Part shown: positions 4,440-60,313 of the stretch, piece by piece
Layout: each line of letters opens with the position of its first letter
Position numbering within the stretch: position 1 is the first letter of the stretch
Assembly: GCF_028583425.1 (NCBI RefSeq)
Contig: NC_072792.1
Span: 11,892,176-11,956,175 of the forward strand
Reading direction: 5' to 3'
From: Eublepharis macularius
Lineage: Eukaryota > Chordata > Lepidosauria > Squamata > Eublepharidae
DNA length: 64,000 nt
Position numbers and translations under genes: made by a program
The notes under the pieces: model-generated
What the model was told of the DNA's origin: nothing
What the model saw: the letters and a program-made list of their open reading frames with translations, nothing else
Databases searched by the model: none

Positions 4440-5042
4440 TTATTCAACAAGAAGCACTCCAAAATGCAGCGGAGTGCCGAGAAGTGCACATATTACACCG
4501 GTATTGCGTCAACTGCATTGGTTACCAGTAGAGTACCGAATCAAATTCAAAGTTTGGGAATTAACCTATAAAGCCCTATGCGGACTGGGACCTGCGTATC
4601 TTCGAGACCGCCACTCCCAATATGTGCCTCAGAGGATGCTTTGATCTAGTGATAAACAGCTACTAATGAATGATCCCTGGCCCCAGGGAGGCCTGCCTAG
4701 CATCGACTATAGCCAAGGCCTTTTCACTCCTGGCTCCAACCTGGTGGAACGCTCTGTTTAATGAGACCAGGGCCCGGTGGGATTTGTTATCATTCCGCCG
4801 GGCCTGTAAGACAGAGCTGTTCCGCCAGGCATTTGGTTGATGCTGGGTAGGGCCCCTGCCAGCCAAAATAGGGTAGAACGGGGGCCCCCATTAGAACATT
4901 CACCTCCAAAAAAGAAGTCTCCTCCTTCTTTATTTTTCAGTGACAGTTGGAAATGGATTAATGAACTGTTTGTGCTGCTTGTTTGTTTTTAAATATTTAT
5001 ATTGTATTTATTATGTTTTAAATTGTGCTTGTAATTTTAATG
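4440..5042 (+). mobile_element. L2-like LINE, 3' end (first part)
   Basis: Plus-strand translation shows the C-terminal hallmarks of L2-type ORF2 proteins: LHWLPVEYRIKFK, then TYKALCGLGPAYLRDR, then AFSLLAPTWWNAL and FRRACKTELFRQAF. The 3' UTR follows (ATTGTATTTATTATGTTTTAAATTG). The element stops at about 5042 and resumes at about 6150 after an antisense CR1. Several stops interrupt the frame. L2 proteins reverse-transcribe their own RNA from its 3' end. Confidence 0.8.
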
Positions 5043-6149
5043 TAGAATCATAGAATCAGAGTTGGAAGGGCCCATACAGACTATCTAGTCCAACCCTCCG
5101 CCCAGTGCAGGATCAGCCTAAAGCATCTCTGACAAGTATTCATCCAGCCTCTTCTTGAAAACTGCCAGTGAAGGGGAGCTCACCACCTCCCTAGGCAGCT
5201 GATTCCACTTTTGAACTACTCTGACTGTGAAAAAGTTTTTCCTAATATCCAGCCGGTACCTTTGTGCATGTAGTTTTAGCCCATTGCTTCACATCCTAAC
5301 CTCTGTTGCCAACTGGAACAGCTCTTTGCCCTCCTCCAAATGACAGCCTTTCAAATATTTAAAGAGAGCAATCATGTCCCCCCTCAACCTCCTCTTCTCC
5401 AAACGAAACATTCCCAAGGCCCTCAGCCTTTCCTCGTAGGGCTCAGTCTCCAGACCCCTGATCATCCTTGTCGCTCTCCTCTGCACCCTCTCGATTTTGT
5501 CCACATCCTTTTTGAAGTGAGGCCTCCAGAACTGCACACAATACTCCAGGTGTGGCCTGACCAAGGCAGTATAGAGAGGGGCTATGACCTCCTGCAATTT
5601 CGATGCTATGGCCCCTTTGATACAACCCAGGATTGAATTAGCCTTTTTTGCCACCACATCACACTGACTGCTCATATTCAGTTTACAGTCCACTCTTACC
5701 CCAAGATCCCTTTCACATATACTACTGCCCAGAAGTATCACATATACTACTCCCCATCCAGTATTTGTGCTTCCCATTTTTGTGGCCCAGATGTAATACT
5801 GTGCACTTGTCTTTGTTGAATTGCATCCTATTCACAGCTGCCCACTTCTCCAGAGTATTCAGGTCTTGTTGAATTTTAATTCTATCTTCTTGGGTGTTTG
5901 CTACTGCTCCCAATTTGGTATCATCAGCAAATTTAATGAGCAGCCCTTCCACTCCTTCATCCAGATCATTGATAAAAATATTGAAAAGTACCGGGCCCAA
6001 AACTGAGCCCTGCGGCACCCCACTGGACACCTCCCTCCAATCTGATGAAACGCCATTGACCACCACTCTTTGAGTGCGGTCCTCCAACCAGTTCCCTATC
6101 CACCAAACTGTCCTATAGTCCACTCCACAGTCTTCCATATAATGTCTAT
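5043..6149 (-). mobile_element. CR1 LINE, 5'-truncated, ORF2 C-terminal half
   Basis: The minus strand encodes the second half of a CR1 reverse transcriptase: VPQGSVLGPVLFNIFINDL, the catalytic FADDTKLGAV, then RDLGVRVDCKLNMSSQCD, YTALVRPHLEYCVQFWRPH and RGDMIALFKYLKGCHLEEG. The first part lies in the frame ending at 5722 and the second in the frame ending at 5289, so one frameshift separates them. The 3' end carries the CR1-type tail, visible on the plus strand as AGAATCATAGAATCAGAGTT. It is inserted antisense into the L2-like LINE; AATGT at both junctions may be a short target duplication. Endonuclease and N-terminal RT are missing, as usual for truncated CR1 copies. Confidence 0.92.
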
Positions 6150-6225
6150 AAATGTGATCCACCCTGAGCTTGCTGGTGTGGGGAGGGCGGTATATAAATT
6201 TAAATGAATAAATAAATCTATAAGA
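6150..6225 (+). mobile_element. L2-like LINE, 3' end (second part)
   Basis: The terminal segment GATCCACCCTGAGC followed by GGGAGGGCGGTATATAAA and an AAATAAATAAAT tail is the 3' end of the LINE whose coding end is at 4440-5042. The intervening CR1 is a later insertion. Confidence 0.75.
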
Positions 6226-6339
6226 ACATGTCATGATATTATAATCTAGACAAACAGTATGAACGTTTGCACTCAAGATTGCATAAGTATCAATAAATTG
6301 ACATCATACTCTTTGTTCTACTTTCAGGAAAACAAAGAT

Positions 6340-8091
6340 TGGAGCAGGGTTCTTACCACTGCTACATCCTGATTTGCATTAACGTTGTCAGGCTTTGGCC
6401 GGGGCATAGCTGCACAGGGAGTCGGTGTGCATGAACTGTGGTCCTTGGCTGTGGACAGGGAATGCCCAGGTCTCCACTCTGTGGAAGGAGGGGAGGTATA
6501 CATCACCCTTGCTCCCTCTCTACCACTTGCGCACCTGCTCAACCTGGCAGGGTCCCAGTGGCATCCTCCTGGTCTGTTGGGATGGCAGAGTAGCTGCCTC
6601 CTGGCTGTCCCCCGCCTGTTCCTCTAGGCAAGTCTGGGAGCTGAGCCTGAGACTCCGGACACACATCCCCTTGGCTTTGTCTTGAGCATGTCCAGGTCGG
6701 GCTCAAACAGCCGGGACATGAAGCTGGCATCCACATGCCGGGTCCCGGCTTGGTACTGGAGGGAGAGGTACCAGCGCAAGACCCGGAGGTTGTGGTCTTT
6801 CACACAGTGGATCCACTGCAAGAGGGCATGGTCAGTTAACAGTATGAATGGGTTGCCTGCCAGATAGTACTGCAGGGTCCCGATGGCCCACTTGACTGCC
6901 AAAGCTTGCCTTTCGATGGTGGCATAGCGCTGCTCTGGGGGTTGGAGCTTGCGGCACAGGAAGAGAATGGGGGCAGGGGCCCCGTCGCGCTCCTGAGTGA
7001 GAATGGTTCCCAGCCCCATCTCTGAGGCATCAGTGGCCAACATGAAGGGTTTACTGAGGTCTGGGTTCCACAGGGTGGTGCTGTGGGACAGGGCGGTCTT
7101 CTGGTCCTGAAAGGCGCTGTCCCTGGCGGGGGTCCATTCCATTTGGTTCCTCATTTCCTTCTTTAGGCAGTCCGTCAGGGGAGCTGCTTGAGATTCAAAG
7201 TGGGGTATGAATCACCCATAATAGCCTAGAAGGCCCAGGAAACACCGCAGCTGCCTCTTGGTGTTGAGGCAGGGGATATCCACTATGGACGCAACCTTAT
7301 TGGGGGAGGATGTAGCCAACCCCCTACCACGACGAAGCCTAGATACTGAAGTTTCTGGAACCCGAGCTAGCTCTTCTTCGGGTTAGCCCAGGGACTGGCT
7401 CTCTGCAAGGTAGTGAGAACTAACTCCAGGTGTTGTAGGTGCATCTCCCAGCTGGGGCTGAAAACGATGATGTTGTCTATGTACGCCAGGGCAAATGACT
7501 TATAATCTCCTAAGATCCGGTCCACCAGACACTGGAACGTGGCAGCCACCCCGTGGAGGCTAAAAGGCATCTGCTTAAATTGAAAGAGGCCCTGGGGCGT
7601 TGCAAAGGCTGTCTTCTTGTGGTCCTTGGGCCGTACTGGGACCTGCTAATACCCTTTGGTCAGGTCTAAAGCTGACAGAAAGCGAGCTGTTCCCAGATGG
7701 CCGACCAGCACGTCTGCCCGCGGCATGAGGTAGGTATCGAAACTTGCCACTCGATTGACCTCCCTATAGTCCACGCAGAAGCAGGTGGACCCATCAGGTG
7801 TTGGCACAAGTACTAAGGGGCTCCTCCAAGCACTCTGGGAGGGTTCTATTACACCCGGCCGGAGCATCTCCTCAGTCTCCTCCACTGCTTCCCATTGCTT
7901 TCGCAGCACTGGACACCAGGTGGCTAGAGCAGGTTGGCTGGGCTCCGTGGGGATAGAGTGCTGGATCAGGTCCATTGACCCAGGTGGCAGGAGAAGACCC
8001 CCGGGATCCATTTGCAGAGAGCGGTCACCTGGGCTGCATGCTCGGGCGTCAAGGCTGGGTCAATCTGGGGAGTCTCCATCTCTAGTGCTGT
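6340..8091 (-). pseudogene. Ty3/Gypsy pol: reverse transcriptase and RNase H, broken
   Basis: From 8011 downwards: RT N-terminus with VEETEEMLRPGVIEPSQSAW, SPLVLVPTPDGS and FCVDYREVN, then ARFLSALDLTKGY (7646-8011). The next frame (7367-7570) has MPFSLHGVAATFQCLVDRIL and the active-site segment AYIDNIIVFSP, where the expected YxDD is YIDN. RNase H follows at 6624-7154: FMLATDASEMGLGTIL, IERQALAVKWAIGTLQYYL, LLTDHALLQWI and DASFMSRLF. At least two frameshifts or stops separate the blocks. No integrase is visible and the sequence loses coding character below 6620. The copy cannot encode an active polymerase. It is a separate element from the gag copy at 1.3-3.6 kb, because the order is wrong for one provirus. 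Confidence 0.9.
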
Positions 8092-17267: not shown

Positions 17268-17939
17268 TAGGGGTGTGCATGCGAGAAAGATTAGGTTTTC
17301 CTGCCTCAGAATTTCCAAAGTGGGAAAAAGATTCTGACATCGCTTGTTGACTGACTTCGGTACGCCCTGTGAAGACTTGGAGCACACCAAACCCCCCCCC
17401 CCCCGCTTATTTCACCTGATGGGAGGGAGAAGAGGAGGTTCCCTCCTCCCTCTCCCATAAGATGAAATAAGCGGAGGTGGGAGTTTCCCATCCTTCAGCT
17501 GGGAGGTGGGGACTCCCTGGCCTTCCAACTGAAGTTTAAAGACTGTTTTGAGGCTTCCCTGGCTTCAGCTGGGAGGGAGGAAATCCCTGACCTCCCAGCT
17601 GAAGTTAAAGCCTGTTTCGGGGCTTCCCTAGGTTCAACTGGGAGAGGGGGACTCCCCCACCACCCAGGTGAAGTTTAAAGGACCTTTCAAGAACCCTGAG
17701 GCTGGCTCCAACTGACTGGTGGAGGAGGGAGCTCCCCGCCAGTCAACTGAAGCCAGCCACAGGGTTTGAAAGTGCCCCAGAGCTTTCCAAAGTGACCCAA
17801 ATCGCTTTGGGAAGCTTTGATTCGGCATTTCCAAATTGGGGCCAGCATGCTGGGCCTGATTCAGAAATCCTGATTTTTTACTAATCGGGTCTGATTCAGA
17901 TATTTATCCCAAATCGGAAACTCAAATCCCATACCCCTG
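17268..17939. mobile_element. Non-autonomous hAT-type transposon
   Basis: The 672-bp segment begins TAGGGGTGTGCAT and ends ATCCCATACCCCTG, imperfect terminal inverted repeats of the AGGGGT type. It is flanked by 8-bp direct repeats ATGACAAC (17260-17267) and ATGGCAAC (17940-17947), one mismatch, the length expected for hAT elements. Inside are a hairpin (about 17405-17473, CTTATTTCACCTGATGGGAG against its inverse) and repeated CTTCAGCTGGGAGGGAGGA-type units (about 17480-17640). It has no transposase frame and would have needed one in trans. Confidence 0.8.
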
Positions 17940-28643: not shown

Positions 28644-28658
28644 ATTCCCTGAAATCAT
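28644..28658. repeat. Target-site duplication, left copy
   Basis: ATTCCCTGAAATCAT, identical to 30240-30254. The perfect 15-bp repeat defines the ends of the L1-like element and indicates recent insertion by target-primed reverse transcription. Confidence 0.93.
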
Positions 28659-28956
28659 TTTTTTTTATAATAGTTTTTTTATTTTCAATATCTAACATAC
28701 AACTACTACATACATACATACCCTACAAAACAGTAACTACAAAAGACTACAATAGCACAAGGGGTAGGAAAGAAGAGAGAAAAAAGAGAGAGGGAGGGAG
28801 GGGTGGAGAAAAGGGGAAGGTACCCTACAAACACTAAACACTAAACACTACATTTCTGTTTTCCCTTCATACTGCCATTATTCAAAAGTTAAAGCTTTAT
28901 ATTATATTGATGGAGTGGTTGACCTTACTAAATGCAAATTACAATTTAATTTCAAG

Positions 28957-29838
28957 TTAGATTTTTCTTCCCCTCCTGGGTCCCGGACGGAGTTCTCTCT
29001 GCGCAACTGCAGCCGCAGTGCTCGTTTCCTCCCCCTCCCCCTCAGGCTTCTCCTTTTCGTCTAGCTTGGTGCACTGGAATTCTGGGTTCCTGTCCTCAAA
29101 ATCCCTTAGTTGATCTTCTGATAATATCTTAAAGGCTTGATCTTTATGGGTGAACCAGATTCCTTCTGGAAATAACCATTTGTACTTTATTCCACGTTCT
29201 CTCAGAAGAGCTGCGAACTTTTTATACTTAAAACGTCTTTTCCGGACTAGAAATGGGACGTCTTTCAATATCTTAATTTTATTGCCCAAAAAGTCCAAAT
29301 CCGCATTATATGAATTGTATAGGATAGTGTCCCGGATCCTCTTAGATGAAAAATCGATGATGATCTCGCGCGGCAACTGACGCTTCATTGCATACTTTGA
29401 AGTAGCCCGACGGGCTTCCAAAATGGCGCTTTTAACTTCTTCTTTAGTTGCCCTCGCGGGTATCGCCAATAGTTCCGAGACAAGACCCCGTAAGTCCTCG
29501 TTTTCCTCCTCTTTCACATTCTGGAGGCGCAAAATTGTCTGTGTTCGTTCCACTTGTAGCCCGATCAACTGATTCTCCACCAGTTTAAGCTCTTTATTCG
29601 TAGCCTTCACGAGTGACGCACTTTCCCGAGCAGACTTCTCTGCCCCCCCCGCTGCTTCCTTGATGGTTTTCACTTCGCTCTCAATTAAGCCCACCCTTTG
29701 ATCTGTTTCATTCAGCTTGTCAACAAAGGGTTTTATAGCTTCACCAACTGCCCTCCGTACAATTTCCTCCAGCGATTCTCCCTTTAAGGCAGCCGAAACT
29801 GACTTGCCAAGGGCAGGACTTTGTTTTTTTGTTGCCAT
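28957..29838 (-). CDS. L1-type ORF1 protein (RNA-binding chaperone), intact
   Basis: 293 codons from an ATG in good context (AAAATGG) to a stop. The N-terminus is basic (MATKKQSPALGKSVSAALKG). Residues about 35-115 are a predicted coiled coil (ETDQRVGLIESEVKTIKEA, NKELKLVENQLIGLQVERT), which would trimerise. Residues about 115-195 match the RRM region (LRLQNVKEEENEDLRGLVSE, QLPREIIIDFSSKRIRDTIL). Residues about 200-265 match the C-terminal domain (FKYKKFAALLRERGIKYKWL, TDxxF-like FTHKDQAFKILSEDQL). The tail is acidic then Arg-rich (GPRRGRKI). In L1 this protein coats the element RNA in cytoplasmic particles and aids strand annealing. It is the longest undamaged frame in the window. The stop is followed by the 3' region, not ORF2. 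Confidence 0.92.
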   Translation of the reverse strand: MATKKQSPALGKSVSAALKGESLEEIVRRAVGEAIKPFVDKLNETDQRVGLIESEVKTIKEAAGGAEKSARESASLVKATNKELKLVENQLIGLQVERTQTILRLQNVKEEENEDLRGLVSELLAIPARATKEEVKSAILEARRATSKYAMKRQLPREIIIDFSSKRIRDTILYNSYNADLDFLGNKIKILKDVPFLVRKRRFKYKKFAALLRERGIKYKWLFPEGIWFTHKDQAFKILSEDQLRDFEDRNPEFQCTKLDEKEKPEGEGEETSTAAAVAQRELRPGPRRGRKI

Positions 29839-30239
29839 TTTGGGGGGGGGGCACCAACCAAATTTTGAGACTCAGCAAAGGGGAAGAGTGAGCCTTCTTA
29901 GCTTCAGATCTCACCTCTCCTTCACGTACGCTTGTAATAACAGAAGGAATTCGCTTACTTGTAGGCTCTCGCCTAGTTCTGCTCTTTGCCGTTTCTCATG
30001 GCCCGGCAGCACTCGAGGCGCCGCGCACGTCCGCCGGCCTCCGTAGGGACAAACGGGCAATTAACCCCCCGCATCGATTCCGGGGGGCTCTTCCCGCAGC
30101 GTCCCGGACCCAGCCTCCCTCACTGGGAGTTTTGGGGGCTAATCTTCGCAGATCAGCCGCCCGGACAGGGTGCTCGGCCGCTTCCTCTCGAGCCAGCGAA
30201 GAGGAGCGTCCGACATGGCGGAGAAAACGAAACCGAACC
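29839..30239 (-). promoter_or_regulatory. 5' UTR and probable internal promoter of the ORF1-only element
   Basis: GC-rich and CpG-dense, beginning TGGTTCGGTTTCG on the minus strand. Near the start, TTCTCCGCCATGTCGGACGC contains a CCATnTT-like/ATG context comparable with the YY1-type start of L1 promoters, although the match is loose. An upstream open frame (30241-29996) begins there but looks incidental. Because retrotransposed elements carry their promoter inside, this segment would drive new transcripts. Confidence 0.55.
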
Positions 30240-30254
30240 ATTCCCTGAAATCAT
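30240..30254. repeat. Target-site duplication, right copy
   Basis: ATTCCCTGAAATCAT, identical to 28644-28658. Confidence 0.93.
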
Positions 30255-32950: not shown

Positions 32951-34354
32951 TCCTATTATATAAAAGGTTAACCATGTTCCAGACTCCTCACTTCCTACCC
33001 TGGTGTGCCTTCAGAGGGCGCTGCCATGGAGGGAGGCCCAGAAGAGGTAGCCCAAGAGGGAAGGTGGCAATGCCTACCACCGTCTTCACCCGGTTGAGAT
33101 CAGGAGTGGAGCAAGTGGCAATGTACGCCCCTCGCCTTCACCAAGTTGGGACCAGTAGCAGAGCAGGTGGCAATGCCCACCCCTCGGCTTTCATCCAGCT
33201 GGGATCAAGAGTGGAGAAGGTGGCAATGCCGTCCCAGCGATCCCCCACCATCACCCAATTGGAATCAGGAACTGACCAGGTGGCAATGCCCGCCACCGCC
33301 CTCACACAGCTGAGATCTGGAGTGAAGGTGGCAATGTTGCCCCCCCTTCACCCAGCTGGGACCTACACTGGTGCTCCTCCAGAGGGCACTGCCATGGAGG
33401 GAAGCCCAGAAGAGGCAGCCCATCCTTCCGAGTGCAAGCTGCAGTGAGAAGCCCAGGTTGGGATCAGGCACGGAGCAGGCAGTAATACCTTCCCCCCACC
33501 TTCACCCAGCTGGGATGAGGAGCGGAGAAGGTGGCAATGCCCATCCACTGCCTTCACCCAACTGCGATTGGGAGCAGAGCAGGTGGCAATGACTGCTACC
33601 ACTTTTACCCAGCTACGATCAGGAGTAGAGCAGGTGGCAATGTCCATCTCCTGCCTTCACCTAGCTGGGACCAGTAGTGAAGCAGGTGGCAATGCCCGCC
33701 TCCCGCCTTCACCCAGCTGGGATCAGCAGAGGAACAAGTAGCAATGCCTGCCCCCCAGCTGGGATCAGGAGCAGAGCAGGTGACAATGCCAGCTCCCCCC
33801 TTCACCTTCACTCAACTGGGATCAGGAGCAGAGCAGGAATGCCCACTCCCCCTTTAACCTGCTGGAATCAGGCACGGAGCAGTCAGCAATGCCCATCCCC
33901 CTTCACCCAGATGGAATCAAGTGCATTGTAGGATGCAGTGCCATCCCTTCTTCTAGCTAGGGTCAGGCGTGGAGAAGGTGGCAATGCCCACCCCCACCTT
34001 CACCTGGCTGGGATCAGGCATAGAGAAGGAGGCAATGTCCAATCCCTCTTCACCTGGTCATGGTCAGGAGTGGAGCAGGCAGAAATGCCCACCCCCCTTC
34101 ACCCGGACAGAATAAGGCACAGAGCAGGAGGCAAAGCCGCTCCCCCCCTTCATCCAGCCAGGATCAGGAGCAGAGGAGGCAATGCCAGCCTCCCCTTCAC
34201 CCGCCAGGATCCGGAGCAGAGCAGGTGGCAATGTCCCCCCCCCACACCTTCACCCAACAGGGATCAGTCACAGAGGAGGCGGCAATGCCCGCCTGCCTCC
34301 CCTCCCCTTTCTAGAGCCCGTTGTATTTTCCCCCACAACAGGCTTTGTTAGTAG
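32951..34354 (+). mobile_element. Helitron-like non-autonomous element with internal minisatellite
   Basis: The 5' end TCCTATTATATAAAAGG after an A resembles the 5' terminus known from vertebrate Helitrons. The 3' end has a short hairpin (GCCCGTTGT at 34316-34324, ACAACAGGC at 34335-34343, eight of nine pairs) followed about 10 bases later by GTAG before a T, close to the canonical CTRR end. There is no terminal inverted repeat and no target duplication, as expected for rolling-circle elements. The interior is almost entirely minisatellite. No Rep/helicase gene; it would depend on one in trans. Identification is by termini and is an inference. Confidence 0.65.
33066..34310. repeat. Minisatellite (VNTR), about 20 units of about 55-70 bp
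   Basis: Each unit contains AGGTGGCAATGCCC, a C-rich stretch, TTCACCCAGCTGGGATCAGG and AGxGGAG. Units vary in length and several are truncated. The opening block CAGAGGGCGCTGCCATGGAG (about 33011) recurs as CAGAGGGCACTGCCATGGAG at about 33380, so the array has a second-level duplication. Several reading frames run through it only because unit composition lacks stops; they are not genes. Confidence 0.92.
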
Positions 34355-59284: not shown

Positions 59285-60313
59285 AGTGTCCACAGGTGTG
59301 CTGTAATGTAGGCGGGGAGTCCGACACAAGCCTCACTAAAGTTCGGAGTTTAACGAAGCTGACCGGGGAACAAAGGAGAGAGCGTAGTCCAGAGAGCCAA
59401 GTCCAAAAGGTCAGAGCCAAGAGATCAGATAGAGCAGAGCTGGGTCGCAGTAGAGCCAGGCAGGTCTTTGCGCAGGTGCTTTTGCAATGAGGGAAAGGGT
59501 GTCCTGGCTTAAGAGCAATCACCTCCAAGGATGGACAAAATGACCAGAAAATTGAAAGAACAAAATCCAAGTGAATTTTTGAATGACTGGGGAAAATTTA
59601 AGGATTATCTTGATAACAAGTGGGATGTGAAAGAACAACTGTGGTCTCTGGATAACTATTAAGATGTACAGCGAATAAGTATGAACTTTACCTTTAATAA
59701 TAGAAACAAATAATAGAATAATGATAATGATAAGAAATAAGCGGTTATAGTGCTGTTGGGAGTCAAAAAGGAAAAGGGGGGAGGAAGAAGGGGTGGGAGC
59801 ATATATACCAGAATAAGGGGTAAATGTAGCTATACCATGTAGTACGGTATGTATGGAATGTATGTTATCTCATCCAATAAAAATTGATTTAAAAAAAAAA
59901 GCAATCACCTTCAAGGCAGTGCTGCATCCTGCTAGCACTCAAGGTCACTACGCCTCTGTTTGAGTGCCTGAAGCCTTGCACTCCGTCTCCTGTACAACAA
60001 GACGCAGCCGCACCCTACGCTGCCTCTCAGGTTCAGGGGAGCTTGGTGAGGATGTTGCCCTGGTCTCAACTACTGGTGCAGGTAACGGAACACCTTCTGT
60101 CTCTGTTTCTGCCCTGGATTCCTCAGCCTGATCTGGCAAGGGTTCCTGCTATTCCACTCCCTGCTGGTCCTCCATGTGTCTGACTCTGGAGGAGCTTGGA
60201 ATACACTCTACCCTGTCATCCTCCACGAAGTCTTCATCCTCTGAGGAATCAGAGCCCATAACAGCAGGCTTTCGAGTGCCTTACACAGTTGTTCACCTCG
60301 GAGCCATCCTGTG
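59285..60313 (-). mobile_element. LTR-like insertion within the Gypsy element
   Basis: It separates Gypsy RT (ends ...LTWSGK) from RNase H (starts ...HKFVVQVDVS), so the host frame was continuous before insertion. On the minus strand it begins TGTCACAGGATGGCTCC and ends CATTACAGCACACCTGTGGACA, i.e. TG...CA ends with short inverted tips. The target duplication is not clear (GAAAG left, CTAAG right). It contains an open acidic reading frame on the minus strand (about 60262-59948, one stop). An L1 tail (59531-59900) was inserted later. A solo LTR is the simplest reading. Confidence 0.6.
59531..59900 (+). mobile_element. L1 LINE, 5'-truncated 3' end
   Basis: It starts at the last codons of ORF2 (MDKMTRKLKEQNPSEFLNDW, GKFKDYLDNKWDVKEQLWSL, DNY, stop). 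A 3' UTR with a purine-rich stretch (AAAGGAAAAGGGGGGAGGAA) and CCAATAAAAATTGATT lead to a 10-A tail. It is flanked by GCAATCACCTCCAAGG (59515-59530) and GCAATCACCTTCAAGG (59901-59916), a 16-bp target duplication with one mismatch. This shows that L1 retrotransposition machinery has worked in this lineage. Confidence 0.93.

Follow-up and report, generated by a model that had tools for sequence, protein, structure and literature searches.

A half-L1-type retrotransposon of the leopard gecko that encodes only ORF1 and is probably active or was so very recently

We analyzed a 64,000-nucleotide stretch of the Eublepharis macularius genome (contig NC_072792.1, positions 11,892,176 to 11,956,175; hereafter the window), which holds a complete element with one open reading frame (ORF) of the L1 ORF1 type. 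Judged from its sequence and that of its copies, this element is very probably a non-autonomous, non-LTR (long terminal repeat) retrotransposon of the half-L1 type that is active now or was until very recently. The initial annotation had described an undamaged ORF1-only unit with 293 codons, an A-rich tail and perfect 15-bp direct repeats, and direct re-reading confirmed each of these, the tail being A8. The element is on the minus strand with its 5′ end at 30239, as established by comparing 41 copies, and it is 1581 bp long; the repeats that flank it read attccctgaaatcat on the plus strand (Table 1). A 401-bp GC-rich 5′ region is followed by ORF1, a 3′ region, and the duplication. Because the element stops 298 bp past the ORF1 stop codon, tail counted, it lacks the ORF2 with endonuclease and reverse transcriptase that defines an autonomous L1.

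We searched the whole assembly (2.24 Gb, 72 contigs) with the element, scored the best 40 of 5441 candidates, and read copies of at least 1500 bp. This gave 41 copies, including that of the window, at 97.5 to 100% identity: 15 are 99.7 to 100% identical to the window copy and 26 are 97.5 to 98.7% identical. Six, the window copy among them, are identical across all 1581 bp at different loci. The whole unit is spanned by 39 of the 41; the final 60 bp or so are missing from L017 and from one copy in L037. A script detected exact duplications of at least 14 bp in 39 copies, the exceptions being L035 (one mismatch) and a nested copy in L037. The 293-amino-acid ORF is intact in all copies except that of L033, which has a stop. 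Recent movement, as initially proposed, is thus upheld by identical copies at different loci and by the copies' own duplications.

From the single copy in the window alone, the element could be a one-off spliced or deleted L1 insertion, and the initial annotation had allowed for a junction found only once in the genome. We instead found the ORF1-to-3′ junction, with at most three mismatches in 38 bases, at 459 places genome-wide (27 exact; control, 0). We rejected a one-off deletion on this count and give it next to no chance. The 5′ end, with at most three mismatches in 30 bases, occurs at 4,686 places (control, 0), a pattern that also admits the sister lineage described below.

The encoded protein is, by its matches, an L1-type ORF1. 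A phmmer search against solved structures matched it to human L1 ORF1 protein (ORF1p) 2ykp (E 9.3e-5, residues 43 to 254) and then to 2ldy, also human L1 ORF1p (E 2e-4). The Pfam family Transposase_22 matched weakly, below its cut-off (14.3 bits versus 22.4); ORF1 of an autonomous gecko L1 likewise fell under it (18.3 bits). The AlphaFold model was poor, with a mean predicted local distance difference test (pLDDT) of 53, and residues 201 to 250 reached 72 to 85. With this low-confidence model, the top 11 Foldseek matches were all L1 ORF1p (55 columns, E 0.013 to 0.046, probability 1.00), and no Foldseek match reached E 0.001. Homologous-protein searches returned two matches with ORF1, three with L1 ORF1 and two with an alignment, too few for a cross-species tree.

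A sister lineage shares the same ORF1-only plan at about 70% DNA identity to the window copy. As query we used P0001, a predicted protein 66% identical to the window ORF1, and scored the best 126 of 23,419 candidates. We read 35 loci (L041 to L075), and requiring 92% identity and 1300 bp left 34 copies, with L070 falling just under at 91.3%. Copies are 1.52 to 1.57 kb long in 29 of the 34 and shortened at one end in five (L058, L059, L063, L066, L075). Duplications of at least 10 bp flank 29, and 27 keep an ORF of at least 296 amino acids. The sister junction occurs at 940 places (control, 0). Intact sister ORF1s end at 296 to 300, 305 or 312 to 315 amino acids, and shifts of frame near a run of Gs apparently account for these C-terminal length variants. 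Some places match P0001 only as far as residue 294 to 297 and were considered as full L1s, an idea we dropped when the five that were read turned out to be this sister element, differing in frame at the C terminus.

The two lineages are far apart. Between their ORF1s the proportion of differing sites is 0.75 for synonymous (pS) and 0.20 for nonsynonymous (pN) sites, four-fold sites are identical at 28 of 69, and synonymous sites are saturated. Although they are, the 5′ regions remain 75% identical, and by blastn the 3′-terminal ends match at 79 to 93% over 39 to 54 nt (12 of 30 loci and five of five further loci). Flanking L063, L069 and L075 are diverged pieces with 77 to 84% identity to the window copy, and copies at 70 to 84% DNA identity keep the ORF1-to-3′-region plan. 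In a protein tree of 11 rows, the seven half-L1 ORF1s form one clade on a long stem (support 100/99); the positions of L079 and P0004 are unsure, and two of 13 rows had been dropped, L062 (nothing extracted) and P0005 (a fragment). From these sequences, the half-L1 seems to be an old, separate and deeply branched lineage, rather than the recent half of any L1 found.

We searched the fetched loci for ORF2 with pieces from L072, L076 and L078, and none of the 75 copies (41 and 34) contains ORF2 inside the unit. The initial proposal of an ORF1-coding, ORF2-free lineage is therefore sustained, with many near-identical copies and no ORF2 in any unit read. Downstream of four copies (L012, L039, L065, L072), the same strand does carry fragments resembling L1 ORF2. 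Because the duplication sits at the tail end in all four, these fragments are target DNA. In L039 the half-L1 is inserted into an old L1, past its ORF1 and ahead of its ORF2, and in L072 it lies inside an L1 ORF2, identified by its match to PDB structure 8sxt (E 6e-13).

The L072 piece also served to search for L1 ORF2s, with the best 150 of 23,654 candidates scored. Among the first 73 matches, 43 lie in 1260-amino-acid open frames, so candidate ORF2p donors exist in the genome. One of these L1s (L076/L077) was read at both ends. There it shows a 260-amino-acid ORF1, both termini of ORF2, poly(A) and, by eye, a duplication. Over 230 residues its ORF1 and that of the half-L1 are 26% identical, and its untranslated regions (UTRs) gave no match to the half-L1 better than E 0.016, which was antisense. 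For a second L1 family (L078), ORF1 and the ORF2 start after it were read, and ORF1 is 25.8% identical. With ORF1s only about 26% identical, the comparison argues that neither sampled family is a recent parent; a parent L1 matching at more than 95%, an outcome considered initially, was not seen in these two. Comparison of the 3′ region with an L1, initially suggested as a way to find its partner, revealed none in the one L1 read at both ends. The window itself carries, at 59590 to 59915 (plus strand), an L1 ORF2 tail (ending WSLDNY), an L1 3′ UTR and an A-rich end that is unlike that of L077.

These data bear on the possibility that half-L1s arose recently by internal deletion from a full-length L1 family, one that has a near-identical ORF1 and was missed among the best-scoring places. 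Our searches leave some space for such a family, since only the best 40 to 150 candidates were scored and half-L1 copies occupy the top of ORF1 searches, and the ORF2-like fragments downstream of four copies would fit it. Those four copies, however, have their duplications at the tail end, and L039 and L072 sit in old L1s. No copy read has ORF2 within the unit, the plan is shared by copies as little as 70 to 84% identical, and the ORF1s of the two sampled families are remote. We consider the deletion origin unlikely.

Purifying selection on ORF1, raised initially as a matter of substitution ratios among copies, is apparent in both lineages. In the window lineage, the 26 copies that make up the 98% group have a pN/pS of 0.28 among themselves, and the comparison between groups gives 0.18. 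Changes found in one copy of the 26 number 36 nonsynonymous to 21 synonymous (N:S), with one stop, and shared changes 7:11; the shared changes depart from the neutral expectation (p 0.009). Among the 34 sister copies, N:S counts are 73:37, 16:13, 13:17 and 8:30 for changes in one, two, three to five and at least six copies. The N/S ratio thus drops with sharing, from 1.97 through 1.23 and 0.76 to 0.27, against 2.12 under neutrality. Changes in one copy differ from those in at least three (Fisher p 6e-6; 5e-6 without CpG-prone changes). Choosing sister copies by their match to P0001 would deplete private nonsynonymous changes, yet the private class is near neutral.

These patterns suggest that copies decay near-neutrally once inserted while ORF1p is retained in the lineages that spread. 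If ORF1p were freely supplied in trans, ORF1 would be expected to decay in the spreading lineage too. Since private changes are near neutral and shared changes constrained, ORF1p probably acts in cis on its own RNA.

Gene prediction in E. macularius has annotated relatives of this ORF as LOC129343057 (P0001) and LOC129341943 (P0002), whose predicted proteins match the half-L1 ORF1. These annotations would fit a host gene of L1 origin, similar to L1TD1, with processed retrocopies. P0001, however, lies within element L041, an ordinary duplication-flanked copy, and the thousands of 5′ ends together with the near-neutral ORF changes after insertion led us to reject retrocopies of a host gene, an extremely unlikely origin in our assessment. 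At both loci a transposon has likely been mistaken for a host gene.

We propose that a promoter inside the 5′ region would give rise to a polyadenylated RNA, which would be bound in cis by the ORF1p it encodes. ORF2p of a full-length L1 would be captured through the poly(A) tail, nick a TTTT/AA-like site, and copy the RNA by target-primed reverse transcription. Cis binding would lead selection to retain ORF1 despite the borrowed ORF2. We infer mobilization in trans by L1 ORF2p from the tails, the site preference, and the open L1 ORF2 frames. A run of at least five A's ends 68 of the 75 copies, and at insertion sites T or C precedes the nick, with A's after it. Two copies are missing the 3′ end and yet moved. 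L017 stops at position 1519, where A19 follows, and has a 19-bp duplication; L066, of the sister lineage, stops at 1431, ahead of the polypyrimidine tract, and has A15 and a duplication of 14 bp. Poly(A) therefore seems enough. The two copies are natural evidence of a dispensable 3′ end and suggest that recognition depends on poly(A) rather than on a particular 3′ end.

Several points weigh against an active element moved in this way. The copies read are the best matches, a choice biased toward young, intact ones. The 15 youngest copies differ by very few changes, which give a pN/pS of 1.16, and in the window lineage alone the contrast between private and shared changes is weaker (Fisher p 0.10). 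The match to TTAAAA at four or more of six positions (31 of 39 sites versus 32% at random flank positions) is inflated, as maximal matching lets the duplication absorb A's beside the tail. Seven copies have no clear A-run, five ending in simple repeats (L040, L049, L050, L052, L056) and two breaking off (L058 and one copy in L037). The half-L1 and L076/L077 have only AATAAA and poly(A) in common in their 3′ sequence, which leaves that L1 a candidate donor. In sister copies L049, L050, L052 and L056, the tails end in simple repeats, (CAAA)n, (GAAA)n and (TA)n among them, where other copies have an A-run.

The simple-repeat ends, and the part of the 3′ end conserved between lineages, could also point to mobilization by another LINE (long interspersed element) of the CR1, Bov-B or L2 type acting through the 3′ end. 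The window does contain reverse transcriptase fragments on the minus strand at 5722 to 6276 and 6624 to 7154 (RVT_1; RNase H of reverse transcriptase type), of which we take the RVT_1 match to be CR1-like and the RNase H fragment gypsy-like. Against such a LINE stand the A-runs, which vary in length, the TTAAAA-like sites, and the poly(A) and duplications of the two copies without the conserved end. We rejected CR1-type 3′ recognition on those two copies, and mobilization by another LINE is very unlikely overall.

A second ORF1-only family came from a Pfam L1 ORF1 search with 22 matches above the cut-off. Its member L079/L080 (contig C10, about 43887487 to 43889154) has a 384-codon open frame with a 360-amino-acid ORF1, a short 5′ region, a G-rich 3′ region, A8, and a 15-bp duplication, and we found no ORF2 in its unit. 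This ORF1 and that of the half-L1 share 22% identity. A search with its 756-bp ORF1-to-tail stretch, with the best 40 of 94 candidates scored, gave matches at 78 to 100% identity, 32 of which run uninterrupted from base 1 to base 740 or beyond. Provided that no L1 with the L079 ORF1 exists, the half plan seems to have two or more separate origins in this genome.

Table 1. Features of the half-L1 element and its target site in the window
Feature	Position	Strand	Basis
Target site duplication, element's 3′ side	28644..28658	+	Identical to 30240-30254, read directly
Target site duplication, element's 5′ side	30240..30254	+	Read directly
Complete ORF1-only element, 1581 bp	28659..30239	-	Comparison of 41 copies, six identical including the window copy
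A8 tail, length variable between copies	28659..28666	-	Read, and comparison of copies
AATAAA, likely polyadenylation signal	28678..28683	-	Sequence read directly
Polypyrimidine tract of 3′ region (sense strand)	28759..28819	-	Read directly
3′ UTR, last part conserved with sister lineage	28667..28956	-	blastn
ORF1, 293 amino acids, L1 ORF1p type, ATG to stop	28957..29838	-	phmmer; Foldseek on model
GC-rich 5′ UTR, presumed internal promoter	29839..30239	-	75% identical to sister lineage; promoter role inferred
CCGCCATGTCGG near 5′ end	30210..30221	-	Read directly

The CCGCCATGTCGG site near the 5′ end is one that we take to resemble the YY1 site of human L1, a putative role; CCATGTCGG occurs in the sister lineage too. 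Elsewhere in the window are a diverged minisatellite with units of about 52 bp (33060 to 34290) and a 69-bp tandem repeat of 2.7 copies (17493 to 17680) with inverted CTTCAGCTGGGAGG/CCTCCCAGCTGAAG arms within the unit.

We see an even chance that ORF1-only elements are a long-lived class of their own, present in this gecko as a half-L1 clade past synonymous saturation and an unrelated second family, with ORF1p acting in cis and ORF2p coming from L1s whose ORF1s are about 26% identical. If true, ORF1p and ORF2p need not co-evolve. The sampled L1s carry very different ORF1s, which bears on the need for a match between the two proteins, and an ORF1-only family that appears active and has thousands of 5′ ends offers a direct route to the role of ORF1p for its own RNA, apart from ORF2p. 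A practical point is that gene prediction labels such ORFs as host genes.

L1s of the same gecko resemble the element in their L1-type ORF1 and, in L076/L077, in a poly(A) tail and duplication; unlike in the element, their ORF2 follows ORF1, their ORF1 is distant, and the L076/L077 UTRs are unrelated. L079/L080 shares the order of ORF1, 3′ region, A8 tail and 15-bp duplication without ORF2, but differs in its ORF1, its short 5′ region, its G-rich 3′ tract and its far fewer candidates. Poly(A) SINEs (short interspersed elements) and processed pseudogenes are moved by L1 and borrow ORF2p through poly(A). Unlike the half-L1, they encode no selected protein of their own for movement.

The HAL1 (half-L1) elements of mammals are reportedly the subject of work by Bao and Jurka from 2010. 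In the excerpts available, HAL1s have ORF1 only, poly(A) and target duplications, and are said to need L1 ORF2 (PMC5322556, PMC5753468, PMC4161310). Nearly 2,100 are counted in human, with several origins in mammals (PMC5322556, PMC5753468), where they derive repeatedly from L1 (PMC5753468). The same excerpts describe half-L1s as mammalian (PMC5322556, PMC5753468, PMC4161310), and we found no report of them outside mammals among the papers listed by our searches of the open-licence literature. In the available text of the 2016 leopard gecko paper, which does not mention a half-L1, LINEs make up 12.67% of the genome and unknown repeats 19.35%. Like HAL1, the gecko element has ORF1 only, a poly(A) tail and target duplications, and its function would place it with HAL1 in the class of ORF1-only L1 parasites. 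Descent from an L1 of the same genome that shares its ORF1, a trait of mammalian HAL1, was not seen in the two L1 families sampled. Unlike HAL1, the element thus has no parent L1 found, comprises two branches with saturated synonymous sites, and lives in a gecko; as far as sampled, its descent sets it apart from mammalian HAL1 and looks independent and old.
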